Positions 3,532 to 37,851 of a stretch of DNA of 46,113 nt are shown piece after piece. The position numbers and the translations under genes were made by a program. Positions within the stretch are counted from its first letter, which is position 1; every line of letters starts with the position of its first letter. The stretch is from Chrysochromulina tobinii (lineage: Eukaryota > Haptophyta > Prymnesiales > Chrysochromulinaceae). The notes below the pieces were generated by a model, which saw only the letters and a list, made by a program, of their open reading frames with translations, was not told the origin of the DNA and made no database searches. The stretch spans positions 1 to 46,113 of the forward strand of contig JWZX01003247.1 in the NCBI GenBank assembly GCA_001275005.1. Reading direction: 5' to 3'.

Positions 3532-6075
3532 TCACGGCGCGGCAAACATCTTGCCAAACATGGCCTTGTCCCTCCGCGATTGCTCCTTCATCGCCTCCTT
3601 GAGCTCCTCGAGCTCCTTGCGCACCTCGCGGTTCTGTGGGTCCGCCTTGGCGGCAGTGAGCAGATCCGCCTTCGCGCCTTCGAAGTCCAGATTCAAGCGC
3701 TTCGCCTGCGCGCGCCGGTACAGCGCCTTGACGTTCGCCATGTCGAGCTTGAGCGCGTCGTTGCTCGCCTTCTCCGCCATAGCTCCGTCCCCAAGCTTCA
3801 GATGGCACGCGGCGATGTTGAGGAAGCACGAGAGCGTGATGGCTTTCGACTCACTGAGTTTCGTCTCGATTTCTGCGTCCGACAGCACCGCTGCCGACCT
3901 CACCGAACTCGCCTCTGAAGCCTCCGAAGCCGCCGAAGCCGACGAAGTCGCCGCCGCCGCGCCATCCGAAATGTCGACCCCGGCCTTCTCCTGCTCCCCG
4001 GCCTTCTCCTCTCTCTCCTGTTTGAAATCGGAGAATCGGGGCGCCTTGGAGTTGGAATCCGTGTACCTGCGGAGCCATCTCATGCAATCGTGAATACTCA
4101 GAGGCACCCAACGGCACTCGGCGGCACTCAGGGGCACTCAGCGACGGGTGGACGAACTTGTGCAATGCGAATCGATACTCTCCACGCGCGAAGAGCTTGT
4201 TGCCGCGGCTCTTGAAGCGCATCTGCGCAGCGAGACGCTCCTCGCCGTCCATCGACCACGTCTCCTTGGCTCTGACGAAGCTGAGCAGCTCGAGCTCGAT
4301 CACGACGGCGCTCTCCCTTGCCAAAAAAGGACCAGTCGAATCGAAGCTGGGGCTGCCATACGCCCAAGCCGCCGCCGCCGTGAGCTGCACGAGCTCGCCC
4401 GATTTCATATGGCGGACGGCGGCGTCGATGCACGGCAGGACGCCGGCGGCACCGCCCTCGCTCTGCATAAAAGTACGCGGGCGCTCGATGGGCACCTCTT
4501 CGAGGACCTCGCCGTCCGTGCGCCACGACGGCGAGCCGCCGCCCTCGCCTTGGGCGGTCGAGGCAAGGCGGCGCACCGTGTAACGCACGACGCAGATGGA
4601 CTCTTCATTCGGGGTGAGGTGATCGCCCTTCTCCGACTCCCGCAGTATCTTTTTGATCACCAGCCCATCTGTGAACGGCACCTCCTCCACCTTCGTCCAA
4701 CTTTCGAGGCGCACCTTGAGGCACATGAGAGCACCGTCGGCGCCCGCGTCGGTGCCCGCGACGGCGCCCGCACCCGCCGTCTTGGGCAAGGAGACGCGCA
4801 GCTCCGCCGTCTCATACAGCTGCATCAGCGGCAGTAACGTCTCGAGCCGTGCCGCCAGATCCGCGGGAGATGCGCCCGTCACGGCGCCCTCCTTCTCGAC
4901 CAATCTCGTGCCGATCTCGGCCACTTCCACGTTCGACGCGATCGCACCGAGCGTCACCACCAGACCCTCGGCGCTCGATGCGACCGGCGCGCTGGGCGAT
5001 CTGCGCACCTCGAGATCGAGCTTGACCTCGTACCGCGCCCTCGCCCTCTCCCACCCCTGGCCGCGCCTGAGGACCCGCTTGAGCATCGAGCCGTCCTTGG
5101 TGGCTGAGATGTCTTCGACCCCCACCCAATGCAGCAGCTCGACGGTGATGAAGAGCTCCGCGTTCGGAGGTACGCCGAGATCGGGAGCTCCCGCAGCGCC
5201 GTACCCGAGGGCGGGCGCCACCTTGAGCTCGCACACCTGATGAGGGAGGCACTCAGAGGTCATCGGTCATCAGCGTGTAGGAATGGTGCGACCGCGAGAC
5301 ACTCAGTCGCAATCAGTCGCAATCAAGAGGAGCGCGAGACCCTCAGTCGCAATCAGTCGCAATCAGCGGCAATCAAGAGGAGCGCGAGACCACACACCTC
5401 GCCAGTCGTCATGCCGTTGGCGCCCACGACGGCGCTCTGAAAGAAGGTGGGAACGGACGCGTCGCCTGCTGTGAACGTCTGCTCGAAGTCCTTGAGAAAG
5501 GGTTCACCGTCGCGGCTCAGCCGGCCGGTCCACCTGAGCGTGATCTCGGCGCGCGAGCTCGGCCGCTCCCAGCTCGTGCCCTTGACGAGCCTCCACTTGA
5601 CGAGCTGGCCGTTGTGCGACTGGGTGCGCTCGAAGAGGCGGTGCAGCGTCATCTCGTACTCGAGCACGCTCGCCGCCGGCACGCCGCGCGCCGCGTCGCC
5701 CTCGTCGCCGTAGCCCTGTGAAGGCTGCACTGTGAAGTGCGACATCTCGCCCACTTGCATCGTCTTGAGCCCGGCCTCGACACCCGCGGGCAAGCCGGTG
5801 GATCCGACCGTCAGGCGCCTCCTCGTCGCCTCTTCGAAGGGAGTCTCGCTGCCGGCCACGCGCGCCTTGTAATCGACCTCGACGTCCCACTCTTGCTGCG
5901 GATTGTCGTAGTCGGCGCCCGCGGTGAGGAGCGTCTTGGTCACCGAGTGGTCCTTGAGCACGTCAAAGGTCTTGCCGACGTCCGAACTTTCGAGATGGTG
6001 AGCCGCAAAGTTGCTGCCATCGTCGGGGTCCTCCGGGATAAATCCTCCACCGCCCATTCCATCCGCGTCGTCCAG

Positions 6076-6113
<38 letters not shown>

Positions 6114-6213
6114 TGGGCGACTGATCCGCGGCGCCCTTGCGCTCGTCCTCGTCTACCTGGGCCAGGATCGCGCCCGTGTCCACCTTGGAAAATGTGGTAA
6201 GGTTCTTGGTGCT
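3532..6213 (-). CDS. Multi-FKBP peptidyl-prolyl isomerase with TPR domain (PASTICCINO1/FKBP62-like)
   Basis: Three exons: 5398-6213, 4158-5236, 3532-4096 (819 aa). Introns are 5237-5397 (phase 0) and 4097-4157 (phase 2). The start is the first ATG, in a GCCATGA context; the frame upstream lacks ATG. Residues ~25-60 hold an MGG repeat. Several FKBP-fold units follow, with typical strings TGEVCELKVAPALGYGAAG, spanning intron 1, and LFITVELLHW. The C-terminus carries TPR units (GNKLFARGEYRFAL, then CMRWLRRYTDSN after intron 2, and NIAACHLKLGDG...KALYRRAQAKRL). Placing the second acceptor at 4096 restores the usual spacing to the WL of TPR1. Large plant and animal FKBPs of this plan are Hsp90 co-chaperones that bind through the TPR; that role is inferred. 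The more degenerate middle units may not be catalytic. Confidence 0.88.
4097..4157 (-). other. Spliceosomal intron 2 of FKBP gene
   Basis: 61 bp, phase 2, starting GTTCGTCC and ending GCCTCTGAG. It is mostly CTGAGTGCC-type repeats on the sense strand. The acceptor was chosen to keep TPR spacing; the alternative AG 20 bases further into the exon would remove seven residues. Confidence 0.7.
5237..5397 (-). other. Spliceosomal intron 1 of FKBP gene (introner-like)
   Basis: 161 bp, phase 0. The sense strand is an array of CTGATTGC-like units and ends GCCTCCCTCATCAG. The intron begins GTGTGTGGTCTC and the next exon begins GTGTGCGAGCTC, 9 of 12 identical. Confidence 0.85.
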
Positions 6214-6577
6214 CATGGCGATTGAGTCGGCCGATGTCGGGCCGAGAGCACCTGCGAGTTCCTTCCAGACGAGCCCCAAACTCGTGACGTGGCACCGAGA
6301 CGTTTCAGGACGATTCGCTCAATCCGTTCAAAACACAGGGTGGAGCCGGGACACACGCGGGTATTCAAGTTGTAGTGTGTGGGGTGCTTTTGGTATCCGG
6401 CGGCTCGGATACATGATCTGAAAAAATGGCGCATCGTGGCGGGTCGGAGCCGGGAGCGTCCCGCCGTCCCGTCCCAGCATATGCGCGTGCGTCTCAACAT
6501 CAATCTGAATGTCCAGTTCTCCGCTGATAGAATCGTAAATCAGAATTCTCTATTCTGTGCTGTTGAGACCGGAAATC
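6214..6577. other. Intergenic: FKBP 5' flank and channel 3' flank
   Basis: About 360 bp between two minus-strand genes. It must hold the FKBP promoter and the end of the channel transcript. An AT-richer stretch at 6500-6575 lies just before the channel stop. No motif I can name. Confidence 0.5.
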
Positions 6578-8911
6578 TCACGCCGACGTGTCCTCGAGCT
6601 GCTTCTGCCGGTACTCGGACGGCGCGCGAGCCGAGCCGACGCTCGATCGGCGGCCCATGATGAGGTCACGCCTCGCTGTGCTCGCGTCGACACCCGAACT
6701 CATCGAGTCAGCCATCCACCCTAAGATGGATGAGTCACTCACGCCGGGGCTCGGCGCTGGTAGCCGCGAGGGCGTAGGCATCGAGTTAGAGCTCCTCTCA
6801 TTGAGCCGCGTGTTCCTCGACGAGCGCACGAGGGACTCCAACATTGTCAGCATGGTGCTCATCTGCACCCGCATCGCCTTAATCTCGGCCGCGTCGCCGC
6901 CAGCCGGGCCTCCGAAGCCACCGGCAGTGCCCGCGGCTCGAATGACGGCTTTAGGGAATAAGTGCCGTCTGGAGCGAAAGGAGCTATCATCCGCCGCCGG
7001 CGGCGCGCCGGCGCGCCGGGCTTGAGCCGGAACTTGTTCGGCATCGGCCGCTAAGAGCATCAGGTAGAGCGGGTCCTGCTTCGCGAGCAGGTTGCAGTAC
7101 TGGCGCCAGTGGTGCTGGATGCGCAGGACACGGCACAAGATTGGGTCAGAAGGGCCATTCACGCGCAGCAACGAGGCGTAGTAGTCGAGCTGATCCATGA
7201 CGTAGATGTCTCGCATCAACGCACGGCTAATGGTGCGCGCCGACTGCGGGTCGTGTTCCAGCAGGTGGGTCAGATCCTCCTTCGTTATGAGGAAGACTTC
7301 GCAATCCGAAATGGCCATGTGCGTCTTCGCGCGCCGCCGTCCCAGCAGCGTGTCGGTGCCAAGCACCCCCTCGCTCCTCATCTCGATAGTCACGGATCCA
7401 TCCACGATGTCGAGCTTGTACTGAGACGTGGGCGTGATGCGCATCTCGGTGATCGTCTCATCCGCGCGCAGCAGCACACCCGCCTCGCCTTTGGTGAGGA
7501 AGAGCAGGTCGCGCGAGGCATCGCCTTTGTGGAAGATGACTTCGTTGGCCTTAAAGAAACCCGGGCGCAACTTTGAGAAGGCCCGCTGCTGGAAGTCCAA
7601 GCTCATCTTTTTGAACAGCACGAGCTTGCCGACGTTATCCTGCAACACGTGCTTGACCACCTCGGCGTTCAGCGTCGGATTGAGGCCTGACAAAATGTCG
7701 TCCTCGTCCAAGACAGGCTTCTGCTTGTGGTAGTGCTCGTAGTAGCGGCGTACGCGTATCGCGAGGTTCTTTGGAATCGAACGCCACTCGATGTACTCCT
7801 TGAGCGCGTACATCTTCTCCTCCACATGCTTGGTTTGGCTGTCGAGCGACGCGACGGAGGCGCCGATCTGTCCGATGATGTACGAGAAGATGAGCGATGA
7901 AATGATGAGGCTACCCGTCGCGTATGCAATCTCGGTGTTCGAGACGGCGATGATGTCGCCATAACCCACCGTCGTAAGAGTTGTGAGCGCCCAGTAAACG
8001 GAGAGCATGTACTTGTAGCTCACCTCGCGGTCCGCGGCCTCCTCGTCGTAGCGGAGGAGCCACGTCCTGCCGTCCTCGGTTGGGAACCACGTCGTGTAAA
8101 ACCAGCCGCAGCCAAGCAGGTGCGCGCAGTAAAGCAGCTGACAGATCAGCGTCACCAGACGCATGAGGTGCACGTTGATGTGGATTTCACTATCCTCGAG
8201 GCGCGTCCGAATCTCGCTCATCTTGAAGAGCTTTAGGAGCCGGATCAGGCGGAAGAGGCGAAGCATGCGCATTGCCGCCACGTCGGCCGAGGCCTCACCC
8301 ACAACGAGCTCGAGGAGCTCGATGGGGATCGACGATGGCGCGTCAATCCAGAACCAGCCGCTCATGTACTTTTGGGCGATCGGCAGACCACGCGTCTCCC
8401 AGACGGAGTAGTCGATGATGTACGCAGTTCGAAAGGTGAAGATCACGTCGACGATGAAGACAAGGGAGCTGAGCATCTCGAACGTCCACACCCAGCCCTC
8501 CGCATCGACTTGGAAGCCGATGCGCACGGGAACCATGATAGCCGCATACAGGATGAGCATTGCGATCATCATATCCCAACTTTGCTTCCACGGCTCGTAT
8601 GGATAGATGACGCCTATGGAATTCAGGCAGTCGCAGCGGCGGAATTCGGAAGCGCCAACCTCGTCCTCTCCGACGTGTGGCCTCGAACGAGTGCCCGTTG
8701 GCATCATGCGCATGAAAGTCTTCGCGTGCGCGGCTGCCGCGCGCACTGGTGAGCCCGGTTCCCAGCAGCCGGAGCTCACGACTGCAGCCTCCCACAAGTG
8801 ATGCGCCGCCTCTCCCAGATGGTTCCGAAAGAGCTGCAGGTGCTCGCGGGCGCCCCTCGTGGGTATACCATCGAGGTCAGGGTCGTCACTTGTGGTCGGG
8901 TCACTCGGCAT
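6578..8911 (-). CDS. Voltage-gated K+ channel with cyclic-nucleotide-binding-like domain (EAG/CNBD superfamily)
   Basis: Single exon, 777 aa from the first ATG. Six transmembrane segments fit residues ~110-350: S1 near MMIAMLILYAAI, S4 the Arg/Lys ladder MRMLRLFRLIRLLKLFK (~214-230), a pore helix and the K+ filter TTVGYGD (313-319). A C-linker follows with EEKMYALKEYIEWRSIP, then a CNBD-like fold (~440-580: FKANEVIFHKGDASRDLLFL and the cassette GVLGTDTLLGRRRAKTHMAIS). The phosphate-binding cassette has LGTD where ligand-binding CNBDs usually have FGE, so cyclic nucleotide may not bind; EAG/hERG channels are similar in this respect. The C-terminal ~150 residues are Ser/Pro-rich and probably disordered. 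Function: voltage-gated K+ flux at a membrane, possibly flagellar (inference). Confidence 0.93.
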   Translation of the reverse strand: MPSDPTTSDDPDLDGIPTRGAREHLQLFRNHLGEAAHHLWEAAVVSSGCWEPGSPVRAAAAHAKTFMRMMPTGTRSRPHVGEDEVGASEFRRCDCLNSIGVIYPYEPWKQSWDMMIAMLILYAAIMVPVRIGFQVDAEGWVWTFEMLSSLVFIVDVIFTFRTAYIIDYSVWETRGLPIAQKYMSGWFWIDAPSSIPIELLELVVGEASADVAAMRMLRLFRLIRLLKLFKMSEIRTRLEDSEIHINVHLMRLVTLICQLLYCAHLLGCGWFYTTWFPTEDGRTWLLRYDEEAADREVSYKYMLSVYWALTTLTTVGYGDIIAVSNTEIAYATGSLIISSLIFSYIIGQIGASVASLDSQTKHVEEKMYALKEYIEWRSIPKNLAIRVRRYYEHYHKQKPVLDEDDILSGLNPTLNAEVVKHVLQDNVGKLVLFKKMSLDFQQRAFSKLRPGFFKANEVIFHKGDASRDLLFLTKGEAGVLLRADETITEMRITPTSQYKLDIVDGSVTIEMRSEGVLGTDTLLGRRRAKTHMAISDCEVFLITKEDLTHLLEHDPQSARTISRALMRDIYVMDQLDYYASLLRVNGPSDPILCRVLRIQHHWRQYCNLLAKQDPLYLMLLAADAEQVPAQARRAGAPPAADDSSFRSRRHLFPKAVIRAAGTAGGFGGPAGGDAAEIKAMRVQMSTMLTMLESLVRSSRNTRLNERSSNSMPTPSRLPAPSPGVSDSSILGWMADSMSSGVDASTARRDLIMGRRSSVGSARAPSEYRQKQLEDTSA

Positions 8912-9198
8912 GGTGAATGTTTCCAGAGCCTCCAAATCCTCCTTGGACGGGACCGGCCATCATTCTAGTTCGCGACGCCCCGCGCCGGCGCGTCTTACTG
9001 CGTATTGCGGGCTTACCCGTGACGATGCACGATCGAAAAACAGGGATCTATGTAGCTCTTCTAAGCTAGGGAAATTACGATCTAATTTGGGATTACATCA
9101 AGTACGAAATGAAAGTGGAAACTCTCGACCGGTCTCGTTTGACTATGGTCTATGCACTATTGTTCTGTGCTTCTCGTCCTCAGGCGTCAACACCTCCG
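8912..9198. other. Intergenic: channel 5' flank
   Basis: 287 bp upstream of the channel start and downstream of the fusion gene's stop. The middle (9040-9170) is AT-richer than the surrounding coding sequence. No specific promoter motif recognised. Confidence 0.4.
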
Positions 9199-12100
9199 TC
9201 AGGACGCCGGCAGCGCAGCGGGCACGCGCACGAGCTCCCGCACGAGCTCGACGAGCTCGCGCTTGAGAAGCGGCACGAGTAGGCCCTCTCGCTCGAGGTG
9301 CATGGGCACGTTGTGATGGAACGTGTCATGCTCAACGACGACGACGGCGCGCCGCCCGCGCACACGCGCCGCCTGGGTCATGTCCTCGAGGTTGCCGCTC
9401 CCAACGTGCACTGCGACGCGGCCGACGCCGGTGCCGTCATTGCCGCTTGTGCCGGTACCGCCATTAGCGGTGCCGCCGCCGCTGGCGTGCTCTCTCGCGT
9501 GCTGCTCGAGCGCGCGGTCGATCGCCTGCGCACACGCATTCTTGGCCGCGTCCGGTACGAAAGAGCCATGCGAACGGCGGAGGTCGACGCGTGGGCCAAA
9601 AGCGAGCACACGCGCCGCCCGGTGCGCGTGCTGCAGCGCAGCGGTGGCGCCCATGGAGGAGCCGAGCATGAGCACACTCTCATACGGCGCTGCGTGCGCG
9701 TCGATGAGGGCGCCGTAGTGGGCGAGGCCCTCCCAGCCGCCGCGCGGGTCCTGCAGGTAGTACGAGTTGGACGGATCCGCCAGATAGAGCACATCGAGCG
9801 GCCCGCCCGCGGCGCGTGCAGCTGCGCACGGAACCTGCCACTGTTGCATGCCCGGCCCCTGCGCCGCGAAGGCGACGAGCAGCACGGGGGCACGATGGCC
9901 GACACACGCGGGCTCAAAGTGGTGGTCGACGAGGGCGAGGCGATCGTTCAACGTGCCTGCAAGCTGTGAAGGGGGCGTGCCGCGATTCCAGCCGAGCCCC
10001 ACGCGCGTGCCAGGCCATTCGAACGCCTCCTTCAAATCGAATTGGTTCGCACCGAGACCGAGGTTGAGAAGGGGCAGGTGGCGCAGCACACGCTCGCGGA
10101 GCTCGGCGAGGTTCGTCAACTCGTTCGCCTGCACGTAGAGGCTCTTGAGCTTCGTCAATTTGCGCAGCGACGTCGGCAGGTCGAGGAGCCGATTGTGGTG
10201 CGCCTCGAGCTTCGTCAATTGCGCGCACTCGCCCAACTCCTCCGGCAATTGACGAAGCTGGTTGCCAAACAGCCAGAGCTCGCGCAATTGACGAAGCTGG
10301 CCGATGGAGCGCGGCAGCTCCGTCAATCGATTGGCCTCAAGGCAGAGCGTCGAGACGTTGGGTAGCGCGGGCAGCAGCTCGGCGACCGACACGATACCGT
10401 TCGAGCCGAGCTGCAGCCGCTTGAGATGGCGCCCCAGGTGCGTCGTCGTGAGCTGCTCGAGCAGTTGCGTCGGCGGCCGCGTCAAAGGCGGCGTCGGCGT
10501 CAGTGTCGGCGCCTGTGGCGGCGTCTGCGTGAGCGGCGATGGCGGATCGTGCAGACGATTGAAGGAGGCCAGCAGGGCGGTCAGCGCACTAGCATGCATC
10601 GGGAGCAGCGGTAGGGAGGTTTGGTCGTTGCCTTCGAGCTCGAGCACAGCGAGATGCGGGGAGGCGAACGCGCCCGTCGTGTCGAGCTCGACACGGCGCG
10701 TTGAGCTCGACACGGCGCCATCGGATGGGAGCTCTCCTTCGTCGCCTCCCTCAGCCGCCCTCGTTCGGCGCTGCTCGTCAGTCTCGTCAGTCTCGTCAAT
10801 CTCGTCAGTCTCGTCAGTCTCGTCAGCCGCCCTCGTTCGGCGCTGTAGGCCCCAGCGCAGGTGCTTGAGCTTCGCGCAGCGCAGGACCACAGGAGGTAGG
10901 GAGGCGAAGGCGTTGTCCTGCAGGCTGAGCACGTGGAGCTGCGGAAGGTCGGCGAGCCAGCACGGGAGCTGTGAAAAGTCATTCGAGCTGAGTAGAAGCT
11001 CGCCCAGCTCGATCAAGTGGCTCAGGTCGTCGGGGAGGGCGCGTAATTGATTCTCGGACGCGTCGAGGACTCGCAGCGCACGCAATCCGCCCAGCGCCTC
11101 GGGGAGCTCGACGAGTGCACGCCGACGCACGGAGAGCGTCGTGAGGGTCGCACTATGCATGCTCCACCAGCCGCGCTCTGTGGGGAGAGGCGAGGGGAGC
11201 GCCGTAGTGGGCAGCTGGGCGCGCGCGAGGGGCTCAACGCCGGTGTGAGGCGTCCCCGCCGTCGTGGGCGCCTCGGGCACATGCCCATCCGCATCTTCGA
11301 ATGCAGTCTCGTCAATCTCGTCAGTCTCGGCCGCCCGCTGCGTCGCGCTCGACACGGCGCTCTCGGTCAGCCCATGAGGCGACCTGAGCGCCGTACCGAG
11401 CGCCGCCTGGTAGCCCGTCAGCGCCGCATCGGCACACGCGAGCGCCGTGGTGGCAGCAGACGCGTCCCCAGCCGCGGCGGCAAAGCGCGCCATCTGCATC
11501 GTCACCAGCGCCGTGTCGAGCAGCTCGCGTGTGGACATCGTACTGAGCGCCGCTTCGCGCAGTGCGTGTCTGTTTGGAAGGCCTTGCGGCACCGCCCCAC
11601 TGCTCCTAATGAGGCAGTCGACCGCTCGGAGAGTGAGAAGCCAATCGCATGCCTCCGCAGCCTCGGCCCACCGCTCCTGCAGACTCCAGACGCCGATCAA
11701 GAGCACGAGCACAGGCGCCGTGGCGGCAGCGGTGGGCAGCTGGGTAAAGGACGCGCCCGGCACAGCGCCCAAGGACGCGCCCGGTACAGCGCCCATGGCA
11801 GAGGAGGCGGGCGGCGGCGGCGCGCCTGGGGTCATGGCGAAGCATGCCGACTGCCTAATTAGGAGTGGCGTGATGCCCAAACGTGCCGCCGCCCGAAGGC
11901 ACAACGCCTCCGCTCGGGACAGCGCGCCCTGACGAAACGCTTCGGTCGCTCTGGGTAGAAGCAACGAAGGCTCCTCCTCTTCCACAGCGCCGTCGCAAGC
12001 GCCCGCATTCACAGCGCCAGCGCCGCCGCTCGTGACGTGGCCCGCATCGTCGTCGGTCCTCGGTGGTTCGTCATCTGCTCGGGACGGCGCGCGTGCCTCG

Positions 12101-15100
12101 GCTCCCGCGCCCGCGGCAGCTCCCGCGCCCGAAGCGGCGCGCTTGAGCAGCAGCAAGAGCGCCGCCGCGAGCGCCGGGACGGTCGTGTGTTCATAGATCA
12201 GGTTGAGAGGGAGTGTGAGGGATGTGCATGCATCGAGCGCCTCGCGCAATCTGGCGGCCGAGATCGACGAGAGGCCCGCGTCGAAGAGGTCGTCCTCCTC
12301 GCTCACCTGATGAGGGACGCAATCAGCATGCACTCAGAGATGCACTCAGAGATGCACTCAGAGGTCGTCCTCCTCGCTCACCTGATGGAGGACGCAATCG
12401 GCATGCACTCAGGAGTCCTCTCACCGCCTCGCCGCTCGCCTCGAGCATGGCGCCGATCACCAACTGTTGACATTCAGCGAAGCTCCAGCCCGGGGAGCGA
12501 GCGCCCACGACGGCGCCACGTCCAGATCTACCCGAGATCGGCGCGCCCGCAGAGGGGAAGGACGGCGTCGCCGCCGCCGCCGTCGACGCCGCCGTCGCCG
12601 CCGCTGCCGCCGCCGCCACTGCTGCCTTCCCCTCCGTCGCCTCCGCCTCCGCCTCCGCCTCCGCCTCCTCTCCCTCCTCTCCCACCTCCGCAGCTGCTGA
12701 GCGCTGTCGTGGGCGTCTCACAGCCGCCTTCCGAGCCTCCGCGCGCCTCGCCGCATCGAATGCATGCGCCTTCCGAGCCTCCGCGCGCCTCGCCGCCTCA
12801 TGCTCCAACGGCTGCTTCACACGCAAGTCCAGTGTGAGCATGGGCGTCCCAGTGCGCAGGCTTGGCAGTTGGAACGCTTCGGCCAGCCCGATCCGTAGCG
12901 GTTTACCGGTCGGTCCACGTGGCAGCGAGGGGAGCATCAGGAGCATCTCGGGCAGCCACCGACGCGAGAGCAGGCCGTTCGAGCCCGCGGCGCGCCGGAT
13001 CCGATGAGAGGGGTCATCAGAGCGGTCATCAGAGAGGTCATCAGAGGTATCATCAGACGTATCATCAGATCCGGGACCATTAGAGATGGAGCGTACCTGG
13101 GCGAGCGTCACCGTCCGCCCCGACTCGCATACGACCGCCACGCCCACCGCCTCGCCCAGCTCCTCGTGCGGCGCGGCGAAGGCGAGCACCTCGCGCACCC
13201 AACCGTACAGCTCGCCCGCGGGCCGTCGCGCCGTGCCGGGCGCCGTGCCGGGCGCCGTGCCGGGCGCCGTGTCGGGCGCCGTGGTGGGCGCCGTACCGAG
13301 CGGCGCGGTGGGCGGCTCGTCGGGCGCCTCGGGCCCGATGCATGCGGCGAGCAGCGCGTGCTCGACCGCGAGCGGCGAGATCTTCTCGCCCGCGCGGTTG
13401 ATGACCTGATGACGGGGGCAATCCGCAATCAGATGACCTGAGTACGTAATCAGCAATCCGCAATCATACGCAATCAGATGAGTGGGGGGGGGGGCACTCA
13501 GAGTGGCTCAGCGACCAGAGCAGCAGCAGCAGCGAGGCACTCAGAGGCAATCCGCTGATGACCTCCTTGAAGCGGCCGGTGAGATGCAGGTGGCCTTCCG
13601 AGTCGAGCCACCCCTTATCTCCTGTCCGGAGCCAGCCGCCCGGATAGAATGCTTCCAAATTTGGGTCGTATCCGAGATGAGCCCGAGGCTCGTAACCACC
13701 AAAGACGCACGCGCCGCGCACGAGGACCTCACCTTCCACTCCCGGAGCGCCTTCCAAATTAAGGAGGCCGGGGCTCCCATCGGAGCTGTACGAGCTCACG
13801 CCCACCTCGGGCCCGGCCGCGGGGCCGACGGAGGCGAGCTTGCGTCGGGTGCGCTCGCGCGGGTTGGCACAGATGGGCAGGGCTTCGGTCATCGCGTAGG
13901 TCGGGAGCACGAGCGCACCTGATGAGGCAGGCAATCAGAGGGACTCAGCGGCCATCCGACGCCATCCGACGCGAAATCCGACGCAATCAGGGGCGCACCG
14001 GGCAGCGCTTCCTCGAGCTGCTCCCCAATGGATGGAGCGAGAGCGGCGGAGCAATTGCGGATAAAGGCGAGTTGGTGAGAGGGAGGCATGCCGGTCGAGG
14101 CACGCACGCTCAGAGCGTAGCGGAGCACCTCCATGTGGATGGTCGGCACGGCGCTGTACCAGGTAGGCGCCGTCGTGGGCGCGCCCAGCAGCGCCTCCGC
14201 CGTGTCCGCTGCCGGCGCTCGGCTCGGCTGTGTCGGCCTTAGGCCAAGGCATGCAAAGAATTGGGCGGCCTCGAATCGGGGCAGGCAGAGCACCGGCGCC
14301 CCGGCCAGCGCCGTGACGAGCACATTGACCATGAGTCCGTGCAGGTGGAAGAGCGGCATCACATTGAGAGCGAGGGTGGTGCGGTCGAGTCGGAGGGTCG
14401 AGCGTACGCAGAGCGCGCCGACCCCCATGGAGGCATGGGTGAGAGGGACCACCTTGGACGGAGGGAGATCGGAGGGAGATCGGAGGACGATGAGGGAGAT
14501 CGGGCGGAGATGAGGGAGATCAGGCGGAGATCGGGCGAAGAGGGAGGTGATCAGAGGGAGATGATCAGAGGGAGGTCAGAGGGAGATTGATCAGATGAGG
14601 GGGGCACCTTTGGACGACGCGTCGTGCCACTCGTGTGCATCACGAGCGCGATCGCCTCACGCCCAGGACGACGCCCCGCAGCCGCAATCGATCCGGAGGC
14701 GGTGCTGGCAGAGGCGCGAACAGCACGCTCGACGGCCGCGGAGGTTGCACACGTCAAGGTGAAGGCTCCGCATAGTCGCAAGTCCGGATGAAGGACCAGT
14801 AACTGCAGCCCCAGCCGCGGCACTGCCACCCTGGCTGCCGCCGAGTGACGGCCCGCTGGCACGATCAGCGCAGCGGCTGGTAGATCCTGAGGGCATCGCG
14901 GAGCGATCAGAAGCGGTCGGAGAGGAGCATCATCAGACGCAATCAGACGCAATCAGAGGGCAGGTGCTGAGGGTGCCGACGTAATCTGAAGCCATCCGAC
15001 GCAATCTGAGTCAATCTCCCACCTCGAGCTCAAAGAGGGTTTCGGCGTCGGAGAGGTCGGGGTTGAGAGGCGCGAGGGGTAGCAGTGAGCTGAGCGCGAG

Positions 15101-16570
15101 AAAGCACGCGGCCAGCTCGGGGGAGGATGGCAATGAAGTCGCCACGCGCTCGTGCGGCAGGAGGTACGCGCTGTGTCTGGCACGCGACGATGCGATGTCG
15201 TCGTCGTCGTCGTCACCCTCCTCACCCGCCCGACACGGCGCCTCCCCATCCCCTCCCCTAAACCACTCGCCCCCTCCAAGCAATTGTTCACCGAGCCGAC
15301 GCGAGAGTTCACGCAGCGCACGGAAGCTCAAGGGCGCACGCGCATCTCCGCACGCCGAGGCGGGACAAAAGGCAGAGCCCTCATCCGACGGCATCAGATC
15401 GAGAAGACGACTAAAGGCGAACTTCTCGGCGGCGGCGGCGGCGCTCAGAGGCGCTGTAGTGGGCGCTGTGGTGGGCGCTGTGGTGGGCGCTGTGGTGGGC
15501 GCTGTGGCGGCGGCGGCGGCGGCGCTCAGAGGCGCTGGCGGCGGCGGCGGCGGCGGCGGCTGCGGCTGTGGCGGCGGCGGCGCTCCTGACTGCAGCGCCG
15601 CTGCCGTCGGCGGCGGCGTCACGACGTCGCTGCCCACCTTGACGCCGCCGCCCACCTCCCAATGGTCTCCCGGGCAGAGCACGCGTCGGATGGTCAATGA
15701 GACTCGTCGACCACGCACGAGACGGCGCCGCGCCGTCTCGGGCGCAACATGCTCGGGGAGCGCCGTCTCGGGCGCCATCTCGGCCACCGCCTCGGGCGCC
15801 ACCTCGTCCGTCGCCTCGGCCAACGCGCCGTCGGCACCCCGACCGCCGAGCCAGAGCGACGCGCTCATGTCATCCTCGGTGGCTCTCGAGACGCTATGGA
15901 GCGCGTGCGCGTACGCGTCGCCCTCGAAGACGAGCAGTCCACGCCGCGGGAGGAGCAGCGAAGCCAACGGCCGTCGGACGATCACGTCCGAGGACGTGTC
16001 CTCTTCGAGGAACTCAAAGGCCGTGTGGGATCCGAGGCTCAGGATGGCCACGCGTGCCGCGTACAGGGGACCGTCCTTGTGCGCGTCGATGCCCTGCCCC
16101 GGCTGGTACTCGTTGAGGAGCACGTGATTGGGCGGCGAGTCCTCGGGGAAGACGCCCGCGCGCACGAGCTGCTCGCACACGCTCTGCACCCACGCCGGCA
16201 GCGGCTCGTGCACCATCGGCATGGCTGGCTGGCCGCCAAACATTTGCAGCCGTCGGCCGCGAAGCGTCGTCCAGCCGTCAGGCGGCGCACTATCGGCACA
16301 GCGAAGCAACTCTGCTTCCTCCTCGCTGCTGACCCACTCGCGCACGTGCGCGACGCCACCGATGCCACAGCGCACCGTGTGCGCTCGAGGGTCAAAGAGC
16401 TGCCGGTCTGGCCGTGCTGGCAGCAGGTAGTGGTGGAGTGGTGCGGCAGCGCCGCTTTGGTGGACTGGCGGCGATACAGGTGCTTCTGCGGCGGCCGGTT
16501 TCGCGCCAGTTGGGGCGGCTGCGGCGCGCGCCTTGGCCTTCTCGGCCTTTAGGAGCGCCGCGAAGTCCAT
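9199..16570 (-). CDS. Fusion protein: ALKBH6-type dioxygenase - AAE3-like AMP-ligase - carrier domain - LRR - alpha/beta-hydrolase
   Basis: Exons 15023-16570, 14608-14886, 13999-14452, 13563-13918, 12425-13405, 9199-12306; every junction keeps frame, 2,241 aa. Residues ~60-300 match ALKBH6: NHVLLNEYQPGQG, Fe ligands HKD (~164-166) and distal His in HALH (~225), 2-oxoglutarate arginines in RVSLTIRR. A Pro/Ala/TAPT linker follows, then an adenylating ligase (~380-1200) with HTSGTTRRPKVVPLTH, PLFHLHGL, YAMTEA, LRTGDKGWLD, FKEVINRAGEKISP and the A10 lysine in GPTGKPLR; it most resembles oxalyl-CoA synthetase AAE3/Pcs60. A carrier domain has DLFDAGLSSI, with Ser ~1220 as the likely phosphopantetheine site. 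LRRs span ~1580-1965. The end is a hydrolase with nucleophile elbow GSSMG and a late His (HDTFHHN). Substrate unknown. The ALKBH6 part could be a separate gene, but no stop, splice site or convincing ATG separates it. Confidence 0.85.
10751..10845. repeat. In-frame minisatellite inside LRR region
   Basis: A perfect 23-bp direct repeat (10751-10773 and 10823-10845) flanks an array of CTCGTCAGT 9-mers. On the minus strand it codes QRRTRAADETDE...DEQRRTRAAEGG. A shorter related TDEIDET block lies near 11305-11335. It sits between LRRs and probably forms an acidic loop. Confidence 0.85.
12286..12415. repeat. 75-bp-period tandem duplication across an intron-exon junction
   Basis: The segment beginning at 12286 (plus strand GAGGTCGTCCTCCTCGCTCA) recurs at 12361 with few differences. 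Each copy holds the exon start, an acceptor (CTCATCAG or TCCATCAG on the minus strand) and adjacent intron repeats. Between them are short repeats with a 12-base period, AGAGATGCACTC. Confidence 0.93.
12307..12424 (-). other. Intron 5 of fusion gene with internal 75-bp duplication
   Basis: 118 bp, phase 0, ending GCGTCCCTCATCAG. It contains a second copy of its own 3' end plus the first 21 bases of the next exon, so a decoy acceptor sits at 12382. The intron starts GTGAGAGGA, the exon GTGAGCGAG. Confidence 0.85.
13222..13305. repeat. 12-bp repeat encoding TAPG in the ligase domain
   Basis: Five or six copies of a GGCGCCGTGNCG-like 12-mer. On the minus strand they encode a TAPGTAPGTAPG-type linker inside the C-terminal half of the adenylating domain. 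A related 12-mer array (TAPT) lies at about 15455-15515 before the domain. Confidence 0.8.
13406..13562 (-). other. Intron 4 of fusion gene (introner-like)
   Basis: 157 bp, phase 0, joining GRFKE to VINRAGEKISP. The intron begins GTCATCAGC and the next exon GTCATCAAC, 8 of 9 identical. It ends CCCCGTCATCAG and is rich in sense-strand TGATTGCG and TGAGTGCC, with a C9-10 tract. Confidence 0.87.
13919..13998 (-). other. Intron 3 of fusion gene (introner-like)
   Basis: 80 bp, phase 1, ending TGCCTGCCTCATCAG. It joins LEEALPG to ALVLPTYAMTEA. The first 17 intron bases match the first 17 of the next exon at 12 positions, starting with a shared GTGCGC. Confidence 0.87.
14453..14607 (-). other. Intron 2 of fusion gene (tandem-duplication-like)
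   Basis: 155 bp, phase 0, splitting the A3 P-loop motif after TTRRPK. It is a (T)CTGATC(T)CCCTC-type repeat array on the sense strand. The 5' site CCAAAG-GTGCCCCCC and 3' site TCCAAG-GTGGTCCCT resemble each other across the junction. Confidence 0.87.
14887..15022 (-). other. Intron 1 of fusion gene
   Basis: 136 bp, phase 0, from GTGGGAGATTG to GATGCCCTCAG. It joins LFELE to DLPAAALIVPAG, restoring the A-domain core. Sense-strand CTGATTGCGT repeats fill the middle. The start does not copy the next exon. Confidence 0.85.
15448..15520. repeat. 12-bp repeat encoding TAPT linker
   Basis: Four to five copies of GGGCGCTGTGGT, coding on the minus strand for the TAPT repeats that bridge the ALKBH6-like and ligase parts of the fusion protein. 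It is flanked by alanine and proline runs. Confidence 0.85.
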
Positions 16571-17994: not shown

Positions 17995-20900
17995 TCAACC
18001 GACAATGAGCGGCGGCAGCGGCGCGATGGGCCGCGGCACCTGCGGCAAGCCGGCGATGAACGAGCAGGGATCGCTCACTTGCGTGGCCGCTGGATCATTC
18101 ATCGTGCAGAGAGGGGACGACGCGACGCTAGGTGCCGCGCCCTTGACCCCGCCGCCGCCACCGCCCTTAAAGCGTCCGGATCGGCGACCGACGGTAGCCG
18201 TTGCCGCCGTTGCCGCCGTTGCCGCCGTTGCCGCCGTTGCCGTTGCCGCCGTGTCCGCCGCCGTCTCCGTCGCCACCGGCGCCGTCCCGGGCGCAATCGC
18301 CACCACGAGCCGTTTCGCCGTCTGCGGGCTGAGGAAGCTCTCTCGCAGCCATCGCACGAGCAGCTGCTGTGACGTGGCGCGCATAGCCTCCGCCTCCTCC
18401 TCGGCGCGTCGAAAGGCGTAGCTCTGCCCGTCGATCTCGGACCAGTAGCGCATGGCCTCGTCCTCGATGCTCTTGTCATCGAGCAGCCGATTATCAATCG
18501 CCGCCTGCTGGTTGGACCGGTACTCCGCGGCGGGCATCTTGGCCAGCGTGGCCACGTACCTGATGAGGGAGCTCATCAGAGCTCATGAGTGGTCATCACA
18601 GGCAATCATCGAAGGCAATCAGTCGTACTCCGCATGGGGTAGGCTTACCCTTCAAGGAACCGATACACACGCGCCTCGATGTCGGCGGGTGCGTGCGTGG
18701 CCGACACGACGGAGATCAAAAAGCCGAGGCAACCGTTGGTATGGCGCACTTCGCCACTCACGCTGTAGCCGAGCTGCTGCTTCGTGCGCAGCGTATCGAA
18801 GAGGGGTGTCCACATGAGATGCTCGAGCAAAGAGAGCTTGGCAGCGAGCGCTCTCGAGTCGGGGCCCAGCTGCCAGTACAGATCGAGGGCGCAGTTCTGG
18901 TCCTCCGGGTTGCGGTTGGGTGCGCGTCGCACGAGCAGCCCGCCCGCAGGCAGCGCTGCACAGCCCTCCCATCTGGGGCTGGGCGTTGGGGGGGGCTCGC
19001 CGAGTGCGCGCCCGACGAGGTCGAACAGGGAGCGCACCTCAGAGCGAGCGAGGTTGCCGCCAGCGTACAGGGTGATGAAGGCGCCCCCGCCCTCGCCAAG
19101 CAAATCCCCGCCGCCCTCGCCCTTCGACGCGCCCTTCGCCCCGCCGAGCTGAGCGCCGACAAATGCGGCGAGCGATTCCGGCGTCACCTCGCCCGCACTG
19201 AGGACCGCAAGCCGGTCGGCCGCAGACACGTGCGTCGGGTCGAGGCAGCGCAGCCGCTCGTTGTACGCCAGCTCCGACGGAGCGAAGCCCGCGTTTCGCA
19301 GCGCGAGCTGATAGTCGTTGAGGACGCGTGCGAGTGTGGGCGCATCGCACGGGCGGCTCGCCACTGCATAGAGCTCGGTGCACACGCGCTCGAGCAGATG
19401 GCCAAGCTTGTGGGAGAAGCCGTCCACCTGCAGTTGCCATCCGAGCTCCGACGGAGAGAGATCGTAAGCGAGCCCCGCAACGGTCGCTGCATACGCGTCG
19501 GTGTTCATGCGCTCGAGGGTCACTTTGGCGGCGACCTCACGCATCACTCGCATGCGCGCCCGAGTCCTCGCCATCTCGGAGAGCTCGGAGGCGGAGAGAG
19601 TGCCCGTGCTGCCGGTGCTGCCGGTGCGGCTGACCGTAGAGGGGCGTGCGGTGTTGATGGAGACGCACACGATCGCCTTTGGCGTCGCAAAGGTCGTATC
19701 GGTCTTGTGGAACGCGAGGCCACGTGTCGACGAGTGCACTAGCTCTGGAGGTGTACGAGCCGGCCGAGCCGCCGCCGCCGCCACCGATGCGACAGCCAGG
19801 GCCGCACCCCGCGTCACCTCAGCGGCCGGCATTGGTCGTTGGGTCTCGCCACCATGGCGCAGTGTAAAGTCGGTCGCGATGTATTCGTTGCGCGGCGGCA
19901 GCTCAAAGGGTGTGGAGAGCGGCTCCGAGGGCCGTCCCTCATACGCTTCCCACCAGCGAGCCAGCTGTGCCGAGTTCACAGGCTTCACTGTGAACTCGGT
20001 CCCGAACCAAGGCTCAAGCTGCCACGTGTCACTCTCGCCCTCGGAGGGCGCACCGACCAGCGCCGATGCCTGCTCTTCGGCGACCCCGCCCTCGGCCTTG
20101 AGGCCCTCGCCTGAATCGCCCTCCGCCTTGTACGAGACGGTGACCACGAGCCTGTCGGGCGTGAGGCCACCGAGGAGCTCTCGCAGCCGCGTCGGCTCCC
20201 AATTGGGGCTGTACAGAGCCTCGGCGGAGAGGGTCTCATCGGGTGGCAGCCGCCGAAGCAGCGAGATTGCGAGCCGGCGCACCGCGTCGATCTCCCTCTC
20301 TTGCTCCGCGTACGCGAAGCGCATCTGCGCAATGTCGCGCAGCTCGTCATACACTCCTTGTAGCCGTTCGGTCGGCTCGCGTGACAGGTGGCCGACGGCG
20401 CCGAGGACGAGGTCGAGCACACGGTCGACGCGATCGAGCCCACGGGAAGTGAGCTCCACCTCGAGATCGAAGAGCGCGGCATTGCTCGTGTGCATCTCCT
20501 CATCGACCCCCGCCGCCAGCCCCGTCGCCAACCCTTCCAGCTTGAGCGCCTCCAGGGCCGAGCCTTTGCCCTCGTGCCCAAGCAGATGGCCGACCAGCAC
20601 CTCCGGCTTGGTGCCGTACGCGTTGAGCAAACTCGGAACGAACCAGTTGAGTTTGAGGGTACGCCCCTCGCGAAGTGGGACTGAGCGCACCCAGAGCGGT
20701 GGCTTCCAGCCGGCTACCGCCGCCGCCGCCGCCGCCGCACCCCCGCTCGCATCGCCTCCTCCGCGCTCGCCACCTTCGCGCTCGCCACCTTCGCGCTCGC
20801 GTGCACCGCGCTCGCCAGCTCCGTCGTCGCCCAATCCTCCCAATGGAAGCGGCGCGCGCGCAAACGACGGGCGGGCTACCGGCTGCGAGGGTAGCCGCGC

Positions 20901-21848
20901 ACCCATCTCCTCGACCCAGCCCTGGAGAGTGTCGAGGTCTTCCCCGCCCAGAGCCACCAAGCCCATCAGGCCCGCATGGTAGTAGCGGCTGTGGAACGCT
21001 CGGAGCGCCGACTGCATGTCGACGCCGCGCGCCGCCGGCCCGATCTCGAGCGATCGACGATCGCCCCACATGAACCGGCGGTACGGGTGGGCAGGCGCGC
21101 ATAGGTGCCCAAGCAGCTGCGCGTGCCGATTTCCCTCCTCCTGACGTGCCTGCTGGAACTCGCTCTCGATGGCCTTCACCTCACGCGCGGCAGAGCCTAC
21201 GTTGAACGAGGGCGTGGCCATAAAGTCGAGGAAGCGGTCGAGTGCCGGCTTGAGCTGCGAGGGGCTCACATCAAAGTACACCACCGTGTGCTCCGCCGAG
21301 GTCTCCCCATTGTCCTCGCCGCCGTGCGCCGAGAGGAAGCGGTTCCACTCGTCTTCGTCCGGATAGCGCTCGGAACCCATGAAAACCATGTGCTCGCAAA
21401 AGTGGGCGAGGCCGTCGAGGTCGGGCGGGTCGGACATGCCGCCCACGCCCACCGCGAGCGCGACCGCCGCCTTGCTGCCCGCACTTGCGCCGGCTTCGTC
21501 GTCCTCGTCCTCACCTTCCTCCTCGTCTTCCTCATCATCTTCGTCCTCATCATCCTCGTCCTCGTCCTCTCCATCACCCTCGTGATTCTTTTCATCCTCT
21601 CCATCGTCGTCCTTGTCGGTGGGCACGGCCACGGCGTCCGGATCGGAGATGAGCAGCGCGCGCAGCCCATTGGGCAGCTCAATGAGCCGATATAATCTTT
21701 TGTCGTTGACCGGCTTGGCGAGACGGTCGCTCAGCGTCATCGACGCCGTGCGCTGCCCGAGGCGTGCACGTTTAATTGGGGGCATGGAGAAAGTGTCCAC
21801 AGCGGTGAGGAGGGAGACGGCGTAGAAAGCGGCGAAGCCCAAGCGCAT
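17995..21848 (-). CDS. Nardilysin/insulysin-like M16A metalloprotease
   Basis: Two exons, 18649-21848 and 17995-18559 (1,254 aa), joined in phase 2 across an 89-bp intron. The inverted zinc motif HFCEH is at 149-153 and the third ligand is probably Glu 230 in KAIESEF. An acidic run of about 45 residues (~79-118) just before the active site is a nardilysin hallmark. A hydrophobic N-terminus (MRLGFAAFYAVSLLTAV) could be a signal peptide. The C-terminal half keeps RTKQQLGYSVSGEVR, and after the intron AMRYWSEIDGQSYAFRRAEEEAEA, typical of insulysin-fold subunits. The tail has a TAATAATAA-type repeat and a Gly run. The family cleaves short peptides within a closed chamber. Length is close to nardilysin. 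The preceding intergenic stretch holds G-runs at 21926-21940. Confidence 0.93.
18560..18648 (-). other. Intron of M16 protease gene (introner-like)
   Basis: 89 bp, phase 2, from GTAAGCCTAC to GAGCTCCCTCATCAG. It joins RFLEG to YVATLAKMP. Sense-strand TGATTGCC and TGATGA repeats fill the middle. The 3' end matches introns of the FKBP and fusion genes. Confidence 0.9.
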
Positions 21849-22040
21849 CCGTCGGCGACGTCGGCTTTAGGTCGCGCGCTGTCCCGGTGGTTGCACAAGC
21901 GCATGCATATATGGTGATGGGGGGAAGGGGGGGGGACGGGGGTGAGGTGCGGTAAGGATAATGACTGACCCGCCGTGAACAGATGCTGCGTGATTTTTCA
22001 TCTCTAGATGCGCCCCTTCCCGAGCGTACAGTCTACAGAA
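21849..22040. other. Intergenic: M16 5' flank
   Basis: 192 bp between the M16 start and the stop of the BRCT-like gene. It contains G-rich runs (21920-21940) on the plus strand that could form a G-quadruplex. No other signal seen. Confidence 0.5.
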
Positions 22041-35544: not shown

Positions 35545-35778
35545 CGGGAGCCACGACCGATGAACTTGCAAGTGGTCAGATGATGACAGGAGGTGCGCCG
35601 ATCGGCGGACGGGGCCGCGCGGGGGAACCTAGTGGGCGAAAAATTTCCAATCGCGGCCCGACAAGTCAAGTCAACGCGAGTCCAACGCGAGTCCGAAGAC
35701 CGTGACGGAACAATAGGATGCTTTTCGACGAGGGGCCTCGTACAAGAAAGTGTCCATTACGGCGCGTCAACCGTCGCA

Positions 35779-37851
35779 ATGCGCAGCACGGTGCAGCCTG
35801 CGGATCGCCAGTTCCTCAAGCGCCAGAAGGGCGTGAAGGCGAAAATCGCGGCGCTCGCCTTCACCCTCGACAAACCGCTTCTGTCGCTCTTGCAATGCCA
35901 CATCTCGGTCTTCCCACGCGCTTGCTGTCGGGTGGAGCTCTGGTTTTTCACGCTGCTGCACACGGGCCTGTTCGTGCTCAAGCTGTACGGCTACACACCT
36001 TTGTTGGCGTCGATTACCAACGAACGCGCGCCCGTCAACGAATGGGCAATCACGCTCGAGGTCTCGATCGTGTCCATCTCGTCGACCTTCATGGCGCTCC
36101 TCCTCGTCTTCTACAACAGCCAGTGCTACGGTCGTTTCACGTCGTTCTACCATGCGTCGTGCGGCATGGGTGGCGCGCTGCAGGAGATCGCCGAGATCAC
36201 ATCGGTCACGATGGCTGGATCCCCGGCGCAGCGCTGGGACGTGTGCCGCTACGCGCTCGCCTCGGCCACTACGATCTACGGGAAGGTACTCAACCTCTCT
36301 AGGAACAAGCTGGCCAAGCTGGACGATGAGGCGTGGGAGCGTCTGATGGTCTCGGAGGAGGCGTGGCTGGGCACGGCCAAGGAGGGCGTGGAGCCCGCGA
36401 TGCCCGCACTCCTCGACGACAAGGAGCGCTTCGTCCTCTGCTCCGCCGAATGCGCCGGCAAGGAGTTCCAGATCCTCCAGATGTGGTCTCTGGACGCGGC
36501 GTACCGCGTGTACGCGCCCAACGGCGGCGCGGATGGGCTCATGTGCCACTACGGCCGTCTCGAGGATGCCGTGCTCCGGCTGCGCTCGCACGGCGCGGCC
36601 ATCACCAATCTGCTCGAGATGCCCGTGCCGTTCCCGTACTATCACATCCTCGTCGTGATCATGTTCGTCAACTTCACGCTGTTCAGCGTCGCCTTTCTGG
36701 ACCTGAACTCGTACGCGACGCCAGTCGCGATGTTCCTGATCGTCTTCATCTTCAGCGCGATGCGCGAGCTCTCATCAGCCCTCGCCAATCCCTTTGGCAC
36801 CGACGAGGCAGCCTCCCTCGTGTCCGCGTACGTTCACAAGCAGCGCGAGCTCATCTCGTTCCTTGCATGCTCGGAGCGCTGGCAGATGCATGCGTATGTT
36901 TGGGAGCCGGATGCAGGCGATGATGGGCAGCAGCTGCAGCAGCTGCCGTTGCCTCACCTGCCGCCTCATCCCGCCGACCTTGAGGCCGCGTACGCCACCG
37001 CCTATGCGCATCAGGAGCATCTGCTACAGCAGCAGCAGCAGCTGCAACAGCTCGAGGAGCAGCTCGAGCAGCAGCAGTACGAGCCGCCATACGACGAGGA
37101 GCCCCAGTCGTTACGGATGGAGCCGTTACGGATGGAGCAGCGCCTCGCCCTCGAGCAGCTGCTCGCCGAGCAGGGCGCGCAGATCGCCGCCCTCCAGGCG
37201 AACCTGCAGCAAGCCGCCGCTGCCCGCTCGGCACCCAACGGAAGCGCCGTCTCGAGCGCACCCAGAGGAAGCGGCGCAGCCCCAGCCGCCGCCGCGCCGA
37301 CCGCCGCGGGCGCAGGCGCGGCGCCAGCACCGCAGCGCGGTACGTTGCGCCCGGCGGGTCATGCTTGCATGCTTCCACCCGTCGTCGGACCACGCCCGGC
37401 ACGGCGCGGTCCTCTCAAGCTCGACGAACCCGGAGGCGCGCCCGCGACGGCGCCGTGCGCGGCGGCTGCCGTCCCAACGGCTCCTCCCCAGCGCGCGCCG
37501 CCGCCGCTGCCGAGCTCAGACGAGATTGCGCGGGGCTCGGGTGCGCTCGAGACGGCGCCTCCTAACGTGCTCCACGGCAACACGACGCAGCAGCGTGCCT
37601 CGCATTCCACAGCTTGGGCACGGGAGTTGCCGCCGGATCCCGTGCCGCAGACCCTCTCGTCGATCAAAACGACTCAGCCCTCGGCTGTGCCCACAGTACG
37701 CGCGCTGCTCAGTCCTCCGCCCGCCGCTGCGGCCGTGCAGCTGCCCGGCTACGAGTGCGTCAACGTCAATGGCAAGGTGAGCTGGCAGCCTGTGCGAGCG
37801 GGCGCGCACGCGGAAGGGGAGAATCAGATCGTGTATGAGAAGGAGGATTGA
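35779..37851 (+). CDS. Bestrophin-like anion channel with long Gln/Pro-rich tail
   Basis: Single exon, 690 aa from the first ATG. Hydrophobic segments near 50-75, 95-115 and 290-345; the bestrophin/UPF0187 fold is suggested by FYNSQCYGRFTSFYHA after TM2, the PVPFPYYHILVVIMFVNFTL segment, and the acidic ANPFGTDEA following the last TM, in the place of the Ca-clasp acidic cluster of bestrophins. From residue ~390 the tail is rich in Gln (QQQQQLQQLEEQLEQQQ, likely coiled coil), Ala and Pro and is probably disordered. Bestrophins pass Cl- or HCO3-; algal relatives feed bicarbonate to the thylakoid, but no plastid-targeting leader is visible here. The exact start depends on a 186-bp open stretch upstream lacking ATG. 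Confidence 0.82.
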   Translation: MRSTVQPADRQFLKRQKGVKAKIAALAFTLDKPLLSLLQCHISVFPRACCRVELWFFTLLHTGLFVLKLYGYTPLLASITNERAPVNEWAITLEVSIVSISSTFMALLLVFYNSQCYGRFTSFYHASCGMGGALQEIAEITSVTMAGSPAQRWDVCRYALASATTIYGKVLNLSRNKLAKLDDEAWERLMVSEEAWLGTAKEGVEPAMPALLDDKERFVLCSAECAGKEFQILQMWSLDAAYRVYAPNGGADGLMCHYGRLEDAVLRLRSHGAAITNLLEMPVPFPYYHILVVIMFVNFTLFSVAFLDLNSYATPVAMFLIVFIFSAMRELSSALANPFGTDEAASLVSAYVHKQRELISFLACSERWQMHAYVWEPDAGDDGQQLQQLPLPHLPPHPADLEAAYATAYAHQEHLLQQQQQLQQLEEQLEQQQYEPPYDEEPQSLRMEPLRMEQRLALEQLLAEQGAQIAALQANLQQAAAARSAPNGSAVSSAPRGSGAAPAAAAPTAAGAGAAPAPQRGTLRPAGHACMLPPVVGPRPARRGPLKLDEPGGAPATAPCAAAAVPTAPPQRAPPPLPSSDEIARGSGALETAPPNVLHGNTTQQRASHSTAWARELPPDPVPQTLSSIKTTQPSAVPTVRALLSPPPAAAAVQLPGYECVNVNGKVSWQPVRAGAHAEGENQIVYEKED

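Follow-up and report, generated by a model that had tools for sequence, protein, structure and literature searches.

A haptophyte gene that joins an ALKBH6-type oxygenase to a ligase-carrier-LRR-hydrolase-like chain

Introduction

Enzymes of the ALKBH6 type are otherwise tied to DNA and RNA repair, and their family is known for nucleic-acid dealkylation. In the window, that is, the whole stretch of 46,113 nucleotides of Chrysochromulina tobinii DNA analyzed here, a minus-strand gene appears to place such a domain at the front of a chain that runs on through an acyl-adenylating ligase, a phosphopantetheine carrier, leucine-rich repeats (LRRs), and a hydrolase-like domain. Is this a single gene, does the arrangement recur elsewhere, and what might an AlkB-type oxygenase do on a synthetase?

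One gene of six exons

When six exons are joined on the minus strand from 16570 to 9199, 2241 codons are read without an internal stop. The five GT-AG introns were positioned from frame and similarity, giving the following model.

9199..16570, minus strand: whole gene, ATG to TGA; six exons, 2241 aa; junctions agree with homologues
15023..16570, minus strand: exon 1; 516 codons with the ALKBH6-like domain, linker, and ligase start; same joined chain in P0027-P0030 and P0037
14887..15022, minus strand: intron 1, 136 nt; gene model and alignment of relatives
14608..14886, minus strand: exon 2; gene model
14453..14607, minus strand: intron 2, 155 nt; gene model and alignment of relatives
13999..14452, minus strand: exon 3; gene model
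13919..13998, minus strand: intron 3, 80 nt; gene model and alignment of relatives
13563..13918, minus strand: exon 4; gene model
13406..13562, minus strand: intron 4, 157 nt; gene model and relatives; P0037 stops here, and the P0003 frame starts just upstream of it
12425..13405, minus strand: exon 5; ligase end, linker, and carrier start
12307..12424, minus strand: intron 5, 118 nt; gene model and alignment of relatives
9199..12306, minus strand: exon 6; most of the carrier, an Ala-rich region, the LRRs, and the hydrolase-like domain

The single frame of 516 codons that the original prediction had traced from the ALKBH6 part into the ligase is indeed open, from the ATG at 16570 to the donor at 15022. 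Splice junctions 1-3 are gapless at the joint when compared with all 10 aligned relatives, and junctions 4 and 5 are spanned by nine of the 10, the tenth (P0037) stopping at junction 4; all five junctions are thus crossed by nine homologues, which are gene calls, mostly metagenomic, treated here as continuous frames. By eye, P0003 and P0019 contain stretches resembling translated introns. Comparison by eye with P0003, P0009, and P0013 also drew attention to one further segment.

13001..13096, minus strand: in-frame stretch of 96 nt (32 codons) with a GT start and a GG end (GTACGC...CATCGG)

The segment, which has no counterpart in any of these three relatives, might be translated as an insert or spliced out as an additional intron ending in GG.

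Domains of the predicted protein

The protein divides into the parts listed here.

15677..16357, minus strand: ALKBH6-type 2OG-Fe(II) oxygenase domain, about residues 72-298; HKD at 164-166, H225, RVSLTIR at 289-295
15416..15676, minus strand: Pro/Ala-rich linker of 87 aa (46-84 aa in five relatives)
12806..15415, minus strand: AAE3-like acyl-adenylating ligase, residues 386 to about 1079, spanning introns 1-4
12157..12484, minus strand: phosphopantetheine carrier, residues 1187-1256, with AGLSSI and serine 1220; interrupted by intron 5
10015..11151, minus strand: leucine-rich repeats, about residues 1592-1970, limits approximate
9202..9951, minus strand: divergent alpha/beta-hydrolase-like domain, residues 1992-2241, with GSSMG at 2088-2092 and HDTFHHNVP

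The predicted order of domains, with an A-T-(LRR)-hydrolase layout behind the oxygenase, is reproduced by Pfam on the whole protein model and by the homologues described below. A profile search of each segment, as had been proposed, places four parts above their Pfam cut-offs and leaves the C-terminal domain below: 2OG-FeII_Oxy_2 matches residues 115-295 of the whole model (41.3 bits, cut-off 31.2), AMP-binding residues 472-836 (111.1 bits, cut-off 29.9), PP-binding residues 1199-1256 (34.9 bits, cut-off 20.8), and LRR_8 reaches 57.7 bits (cut-off 27), the best stretches of the over-cut-off LRR models lying at 1824-1943. No condensation domain is found among the 10 Pfam families matched by the whole model.

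By sequence, the nearest solved structure of the oxygenase part is ALKBH6 (7vjs, E = 4.6e-34), followed by ALKBH8 (1.5e-9). The domain keeps the GR.LQ..GG.P, H.DGPLY, and RVSLTIR stretches of ALKBH6 and, as had been claimed from the letters, its full set of Fe and 2OG residues; it differs from ALKBH6 in being joined to a synthetase, as it is in five relatives, rather than free-standing.

The ligase proved to be AAE3-like, as anticipated, its nearest solved relatives being the oxalyl-CoA synthetases 6qjz (the closest; 171 bits, E = 2.6e-49), 5ie0 (165 bits), and 8aff. From this AAE3/Pcs60 type it differs in being fused to a carrier, and where 6qjz has SHL after YAMTEA, the window ligase and 10 aligned relatives have LPI. 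The landmarks TSGTT, RTGDKG, and PTGK are intact, and the core reads MPLFHLHG. The best-scoring model is of FadD7 type (200.7 bits, as against 61.1 for the amino-acid adenylation model TIGR01733, cut-off 317.4), in a comparison in which each of the 25 listed models, also those for acyl-CoA ligases, stays under its own cut-off. The window ligase thus looks like a carboxylic-acid type, and activation of an amino acid is therefore unlikely; of the acyl or amino acid substrate originally proposed, the first half fits and the second is disfavored by the higher scores of the acyl-CoA-ligase models and by the PLFHLHG core. Two sister ligases of the same genome, L012 (G000:C2021) and L011 (G000:C1609), are 50-53% identical to the window ligase over the core, and the ligase frame of C2021 continues into an Acyl_transf_3-like part (23.5 bits, cut-off 31).

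The last 250 residues have no good Pfam or PDB sequence match: no Pfam family scores above its cut-off, and a profile search of the domain against the PDB returned nothing. Abhydrolase_6 appears as a weak, sub-threshold match in nine of 14 aligned members (best E = 0.0041), the window copy not being among them, and GSSMG or GDSMG is present in 20 of the 26 matches to the LRR-hydrolase end described below. We call the domain hydrolase-like from its GSSMG, its late His, and these weak Abhydrolase_6 matches in members. It does sit where a thioesterase would be expected, in keeping with the original prediction; its identity as a thioesterase is not borne out, there being no thioesterase Pfam match. 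A distant relative of this domain, L008 (G000:C2238), lies in a frame of 857 aa that also has, by eye, a HAD-phosphatase-looking stretch.

The join between oxygenase and ligase

A search with the ALKBH6 part gave 24 matches, five of which (P0027-P0030 and P0037) continue into the ligase, so that homologues are not consistently separate and the fusion first seen in the window holds. Because the search scored 8000 candidates among proteins of 362-1151 aa, a range outside which most free-standing ALKBH6 proteins fall, the five of 24 are not a frequency in nature. Identity to the window over the ALKBH6 part is 91-97% for P0027, P0028, and P0029, 69% for P0030, and 74% for P0037; in P0037 the ligase part is 54% identical, and P0030 stops early in the ligase, its AMP-binding match (19.1 bits) lying under the cut-off. 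Between these relatives the linkers vary in length and sequence, with conserved domains on both sides. That two genes were joined by chance or in assembly was rejected as the main reading, since five relatives retain the join. The same search also returned an ALKBH6 relative from Haptolina (P0038).

Only one genome shows all five parts in a single chain; the relatives supply overlapping halves. The frame of P0037 runs as far as the site of intron 4, P0003 starts just ahead of the residues that follow that intron, and the tree of C-terminal domains groups P0003 with the window (100/98); P0037 and P0003 may be halves of a single gene. Among 3994 candidates of 1232-3921 aa, no protein with an ALKBH6 domain was found, a result that speaks against further five-part frames without interruption and fits the presence of introns in these genes.

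In a tree of 25 AlkB-like sequences, the fused domains form one group (97/97) against 19 others, namely 16 of the 19 non-fused search matches (leaving aside P0045, P0047, and P0050) and L002-L004. The HxD, distal H, and RxxxxxR are intact in all six fused domains scanned. At twelve positions the fused domains share a residue that none of seven separate ones has, in a comparison of four fused domains in which P0037 covers three positions and nine positions are readable in three domains only; F111 and Q114 are among them, in the GGxP stretch that adjoins GRRLQ. These positions hint at an altered ALKBH6 pocket, without proving one. In the genome searched for paralogues (53.15 Mb, 2253 contigs), ALKBH6-like genes are few: the window gene, three others at 42-58% identity, and two remoter AlkB-like genes. 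The three others are L002, L003, and L004, and L003 reads HTDGVMY where the window reads HKDGPLY.

A family with a variable oxygenase slot

A search with the LRR-hydrolase end returned 26 proteins, the window's own among them. Eight (P0006, P0009, P0011, P0013, P0014, P0016, P0018, and P0019) have ligase, carrier, LRRs, and GSSMG in one chain, and in all eight the LRRs sit between carrier and hydrolase; P0010 includes a portion of the ligase, P0020 is without the GSSMG end, the matches of P0025 and P0026 are through the LRRs only, and that of P0024 is through the hydrolase part only. Distant members are about 39-65% identical to the window over the matched parts, and the carrier serine is present in all 18 carriers that a profile search finds among the 26 matches, the window copy counted. 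As judged from these predicted chains, ligase-carrier-LRR-hydrolase is a protein family, and the window gene is a real, conserved, and unusual multidomain enzyme, a variant of the single-module NRPS-like synthetases. In neither genome_contigs (one scan) nor viral_contigs was a prokaryotic or viral relative of the hydrolase-like domain or of the chassis found, in scans that need exact short words and that distant relatives would escape.

No oxygenase is visible in five of the eight complete chains (P0006, P0011, P0014, P0016, and P0018), so the chain can do without one, unless an exon encoding it has been missed. Four sisters carry, ahead of the ligase, the end of a PhyH-like 2OG oxygenase: P0009 (18.7 bits), P0013 (23.6), P0019 (21.5), and P0020 (15.7), one of the four exceeding the Pfam cut-off of 22. 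The N-terminus of P0013 alone gives 29.6 bits (E = 1e-6) against PhyH and matched no solved structure. All four matches span the end of the domain only, the HxD part not being in the chains, and PhyH is not named for these proteins in the database's own Pfam lists. Common to the four N-termini is HGAVPN.S...R, a motif derived from these same four sequences, which fits a distal His and a 2OG-binding Arg. In P0007 a PhyH domain with both HxD and H...R lies behind the hydrolase (28.2 bits), so that the chassis is seen with two kinds of 2OG oxygenase in front and, once, with one behind. Another pairing of a 2OG oxygenase with a hydrolase-like domain occurs in P0024 (1041 aa), which has PBDC1, PhyH, and a distant relative of the C-terminal domain, without a ligase.

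The ligase tree places the ALKBH6 forms (two rows; 98/99) and the PhyH forms (four rows together with P0018, one of the five chains without a visible oxygenase; 98/98) in separate groups, and four members without an oxygenase in a third (100/97). In the C-terminal tree, which has 17 rows picked for having GSSMG, the PhyH forms weakly make one group (75/86) and the group without an oxygenase is weak (60/71). The window's genome contains 54 PhyH matches, counted exon by exon; with PhyH so abundant, a PhyH fusion is less surprising and an argument from coincidence is weaker. The window gene is then, on its predicted domains, one branch of a family whose oxygenase slot is filled by ALKBH6, by a PhyH-like part, or by nothing visible.

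Known systems

The fungal non-reducing NRPS-like A-T-TE enzymes of the atromentin and polyporic acid type, as presented in PMC9047271, resemble the window protein in having adenylation, carrier, and a C-terminal domain in the hydrolase position, in lacking a condensation domain, and, probably, in using acids rather than amino acids as substrates; their last domain can condense. In the fungal example given there, the hydroxylating enzyme is a separate monooxygenase, whereas the oxygenase of the window protein is built in. The fungal class uses aromatic alpha-keto acids. Further differences are the window's N-terminal 2OG oxygenase, its AAE3-like ligase, its carrier-LRR-last-domain order, and a last domain that has no Pfam thioesterase match and does not directly follow T. 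The algal class "Other(A)" of PMC7073580, in which an A domain and a carrier are accompanied by a further domain, for instance a thioesterase, numbers eight, five, and six genes in three haptophyte genomes and shares with the window gene the presence of an A domain, a carrier, and a further domain; leucine-rich and LRR are mentioned 0 times in the main text of that paper. For C. tobin, the passages of PMC4580454 consulted report a hybrid of PKS and NRPS but no NRPS pathway that stands alone, and "leucine-rich" occurs in them 0 times.

One open-access library yielded no paper on a haptophyte NRPS with leucine-rich repeats, no description of an ALKBH6-adenylation-domain fusion among the matches listed, and no relevant description of the combined domain order. 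The original prediction that no described family has this order stands to the extent that no description was found; the gene is not the isolated oddity that this suggested, being a branch of a family.

Proposed chemistry and alternatives

We put at about one-half the probability that the protein is an acyl synthetase of the single-module, NRPS-like kind, with a 2OG oxygenase built in, and that it activates, tethers, hydroxylates, and releases or transfers its substrate. The AAE3-like ligase would adenylate a carboxylic acid, and the acyl group would pass to a phosphopantetheine arm on serine 1220. With its active-site residues in place, the N-terminal ALKBH6-related oxygenase could then hydroxylate the tethered acyl chain or the product, and the GSSMG domain, by its presumed fold, would hydrolyze, transfer, or condense the acyl group off the carrier. 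The LRRs would most likely dock an acceptor or partner protein. Since the HxD is kept, hydroxylation would be expected rather than halogenation, going by the familiar halogenase signature.

The target is suggested by the sisters. According to PMC2871039, PhyH and SyrB2 both act on thioester substrates tethered to phosphopantetheine, and because a PhyH-like end occupies the same slot in sister proteins, a tethered acyl group would be the probable target of the window oxygenase as well. Like the PhyH-family enzyme SyrB2 (PMC2871039), the window protein pairs a 2OG-Fe(II) enzyme with a carrier; it differs in that its oxygenase is of AlkB type, with the HxD kept. The fuller version of our proposal is more tentative, and we hold it at somewhat less than even odds: an AlkB oxygenase was recruited into a carrier synthetase in haptophyte-like algae, where it hydroxylates a phosphopantetheine-tethered acyl group, with a PhyH-type parallel in the sisters and docking by the LRRs. 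Counting against a changed target, the fused domain retains the general ALKBH6 core.

That retention, together with the intact HxD...H...RxxxxxR, is what speaks for the strongest alternative, which we regard as unlikely, namely that the domain keeps its ancestral nucleic-acid or other AlkB-type target and rides as a passenger on the synthetase or regulates it as a 2OG or oxygen sensor. Other fusions in the genome also lend it some weight (the ligase joined to an acyltransferase-like part, under the cut-off, and the hydrolase relative joined to a HAD-like part, by eye). Set against it are the three other ALKBH6-like genes, by which the ancestral role may be covered; the twelve positions constant in fused domains alone, nine of them readable in three fused domains only; and the second 2OG family in the same slot of a sister clade. 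We think it distinctly improbable that the enzyme modifies proteins, the LRRs binding a target protein onto which the C-terminal domain moves the acyl group, perhaps hydroxylated, from the carrier. LRRs usually bind proteins, and their place between carrier and hydrolase in the eight complete chains would suit such a role, but no target is known, no transferase family is found among the matches of the C-terminal domain, and GSSMG with a late His suits a serine hydrolase equally. Least probable is an accidental frame shared by two neighboring genes, whose real products would be a separate ALKBH6-like protein and a synthetase: the linker is of low complexity and no oxygenase shows in five of the eight complete chains, yet the join persists in five relatives, at identities as low as 74%/54%, and the window linker has no Met ahead of the ligase start.

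If the synthetase reading is right, a family of nucleic-acid dealkylation has moved into small-molecule assembly, a new use of the AlkB fold, and two branches of 2OG oxygenases have converged on one slot of one enzyme. The algal A-carrier-hydrolase genes would then gain a testable chemistry, in organisms that form large blooms and have many orphan products, and the occurrence of ALKBH6 or PhyH on one chassis would amount to a natural experiment on what the AlkB fold can oxidize.

Introns and genomic surroundings

Around the gene, among 10 neighbor frames scanned, three gave no match and no biosynthetic cluster is apparent. The regions at 3854-8959, 18648-21866, and 35587-44461 encode an FKBP (two frames), a cyclic-nucleotide-type ion channel, an M16 peptidase, a bestrophin, a beta-lactamase-like protein, and a helicase with an RTEL1-like part. 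G+C in the window is 57-73% per kb.

The introns of the gene (12307-15022) are short and rich in minisatellite-like repeats. The element CTGATTGCG occurs in nine copies in the window, as against 0.89 expected, and six of the nine lie inside the gene's introns. In introns 2-5 the donor sequence recurs directly after the acceptor (e.g., GGTCATC and GGTGCGC), as at 13400-13407/13557-13564 and 14445-14460/14601-14616. All five introns are absent from nine relatives and the first three from P0037, and because the relatives do not have them, the introns look gained, either introner-like or by tandem duplication.
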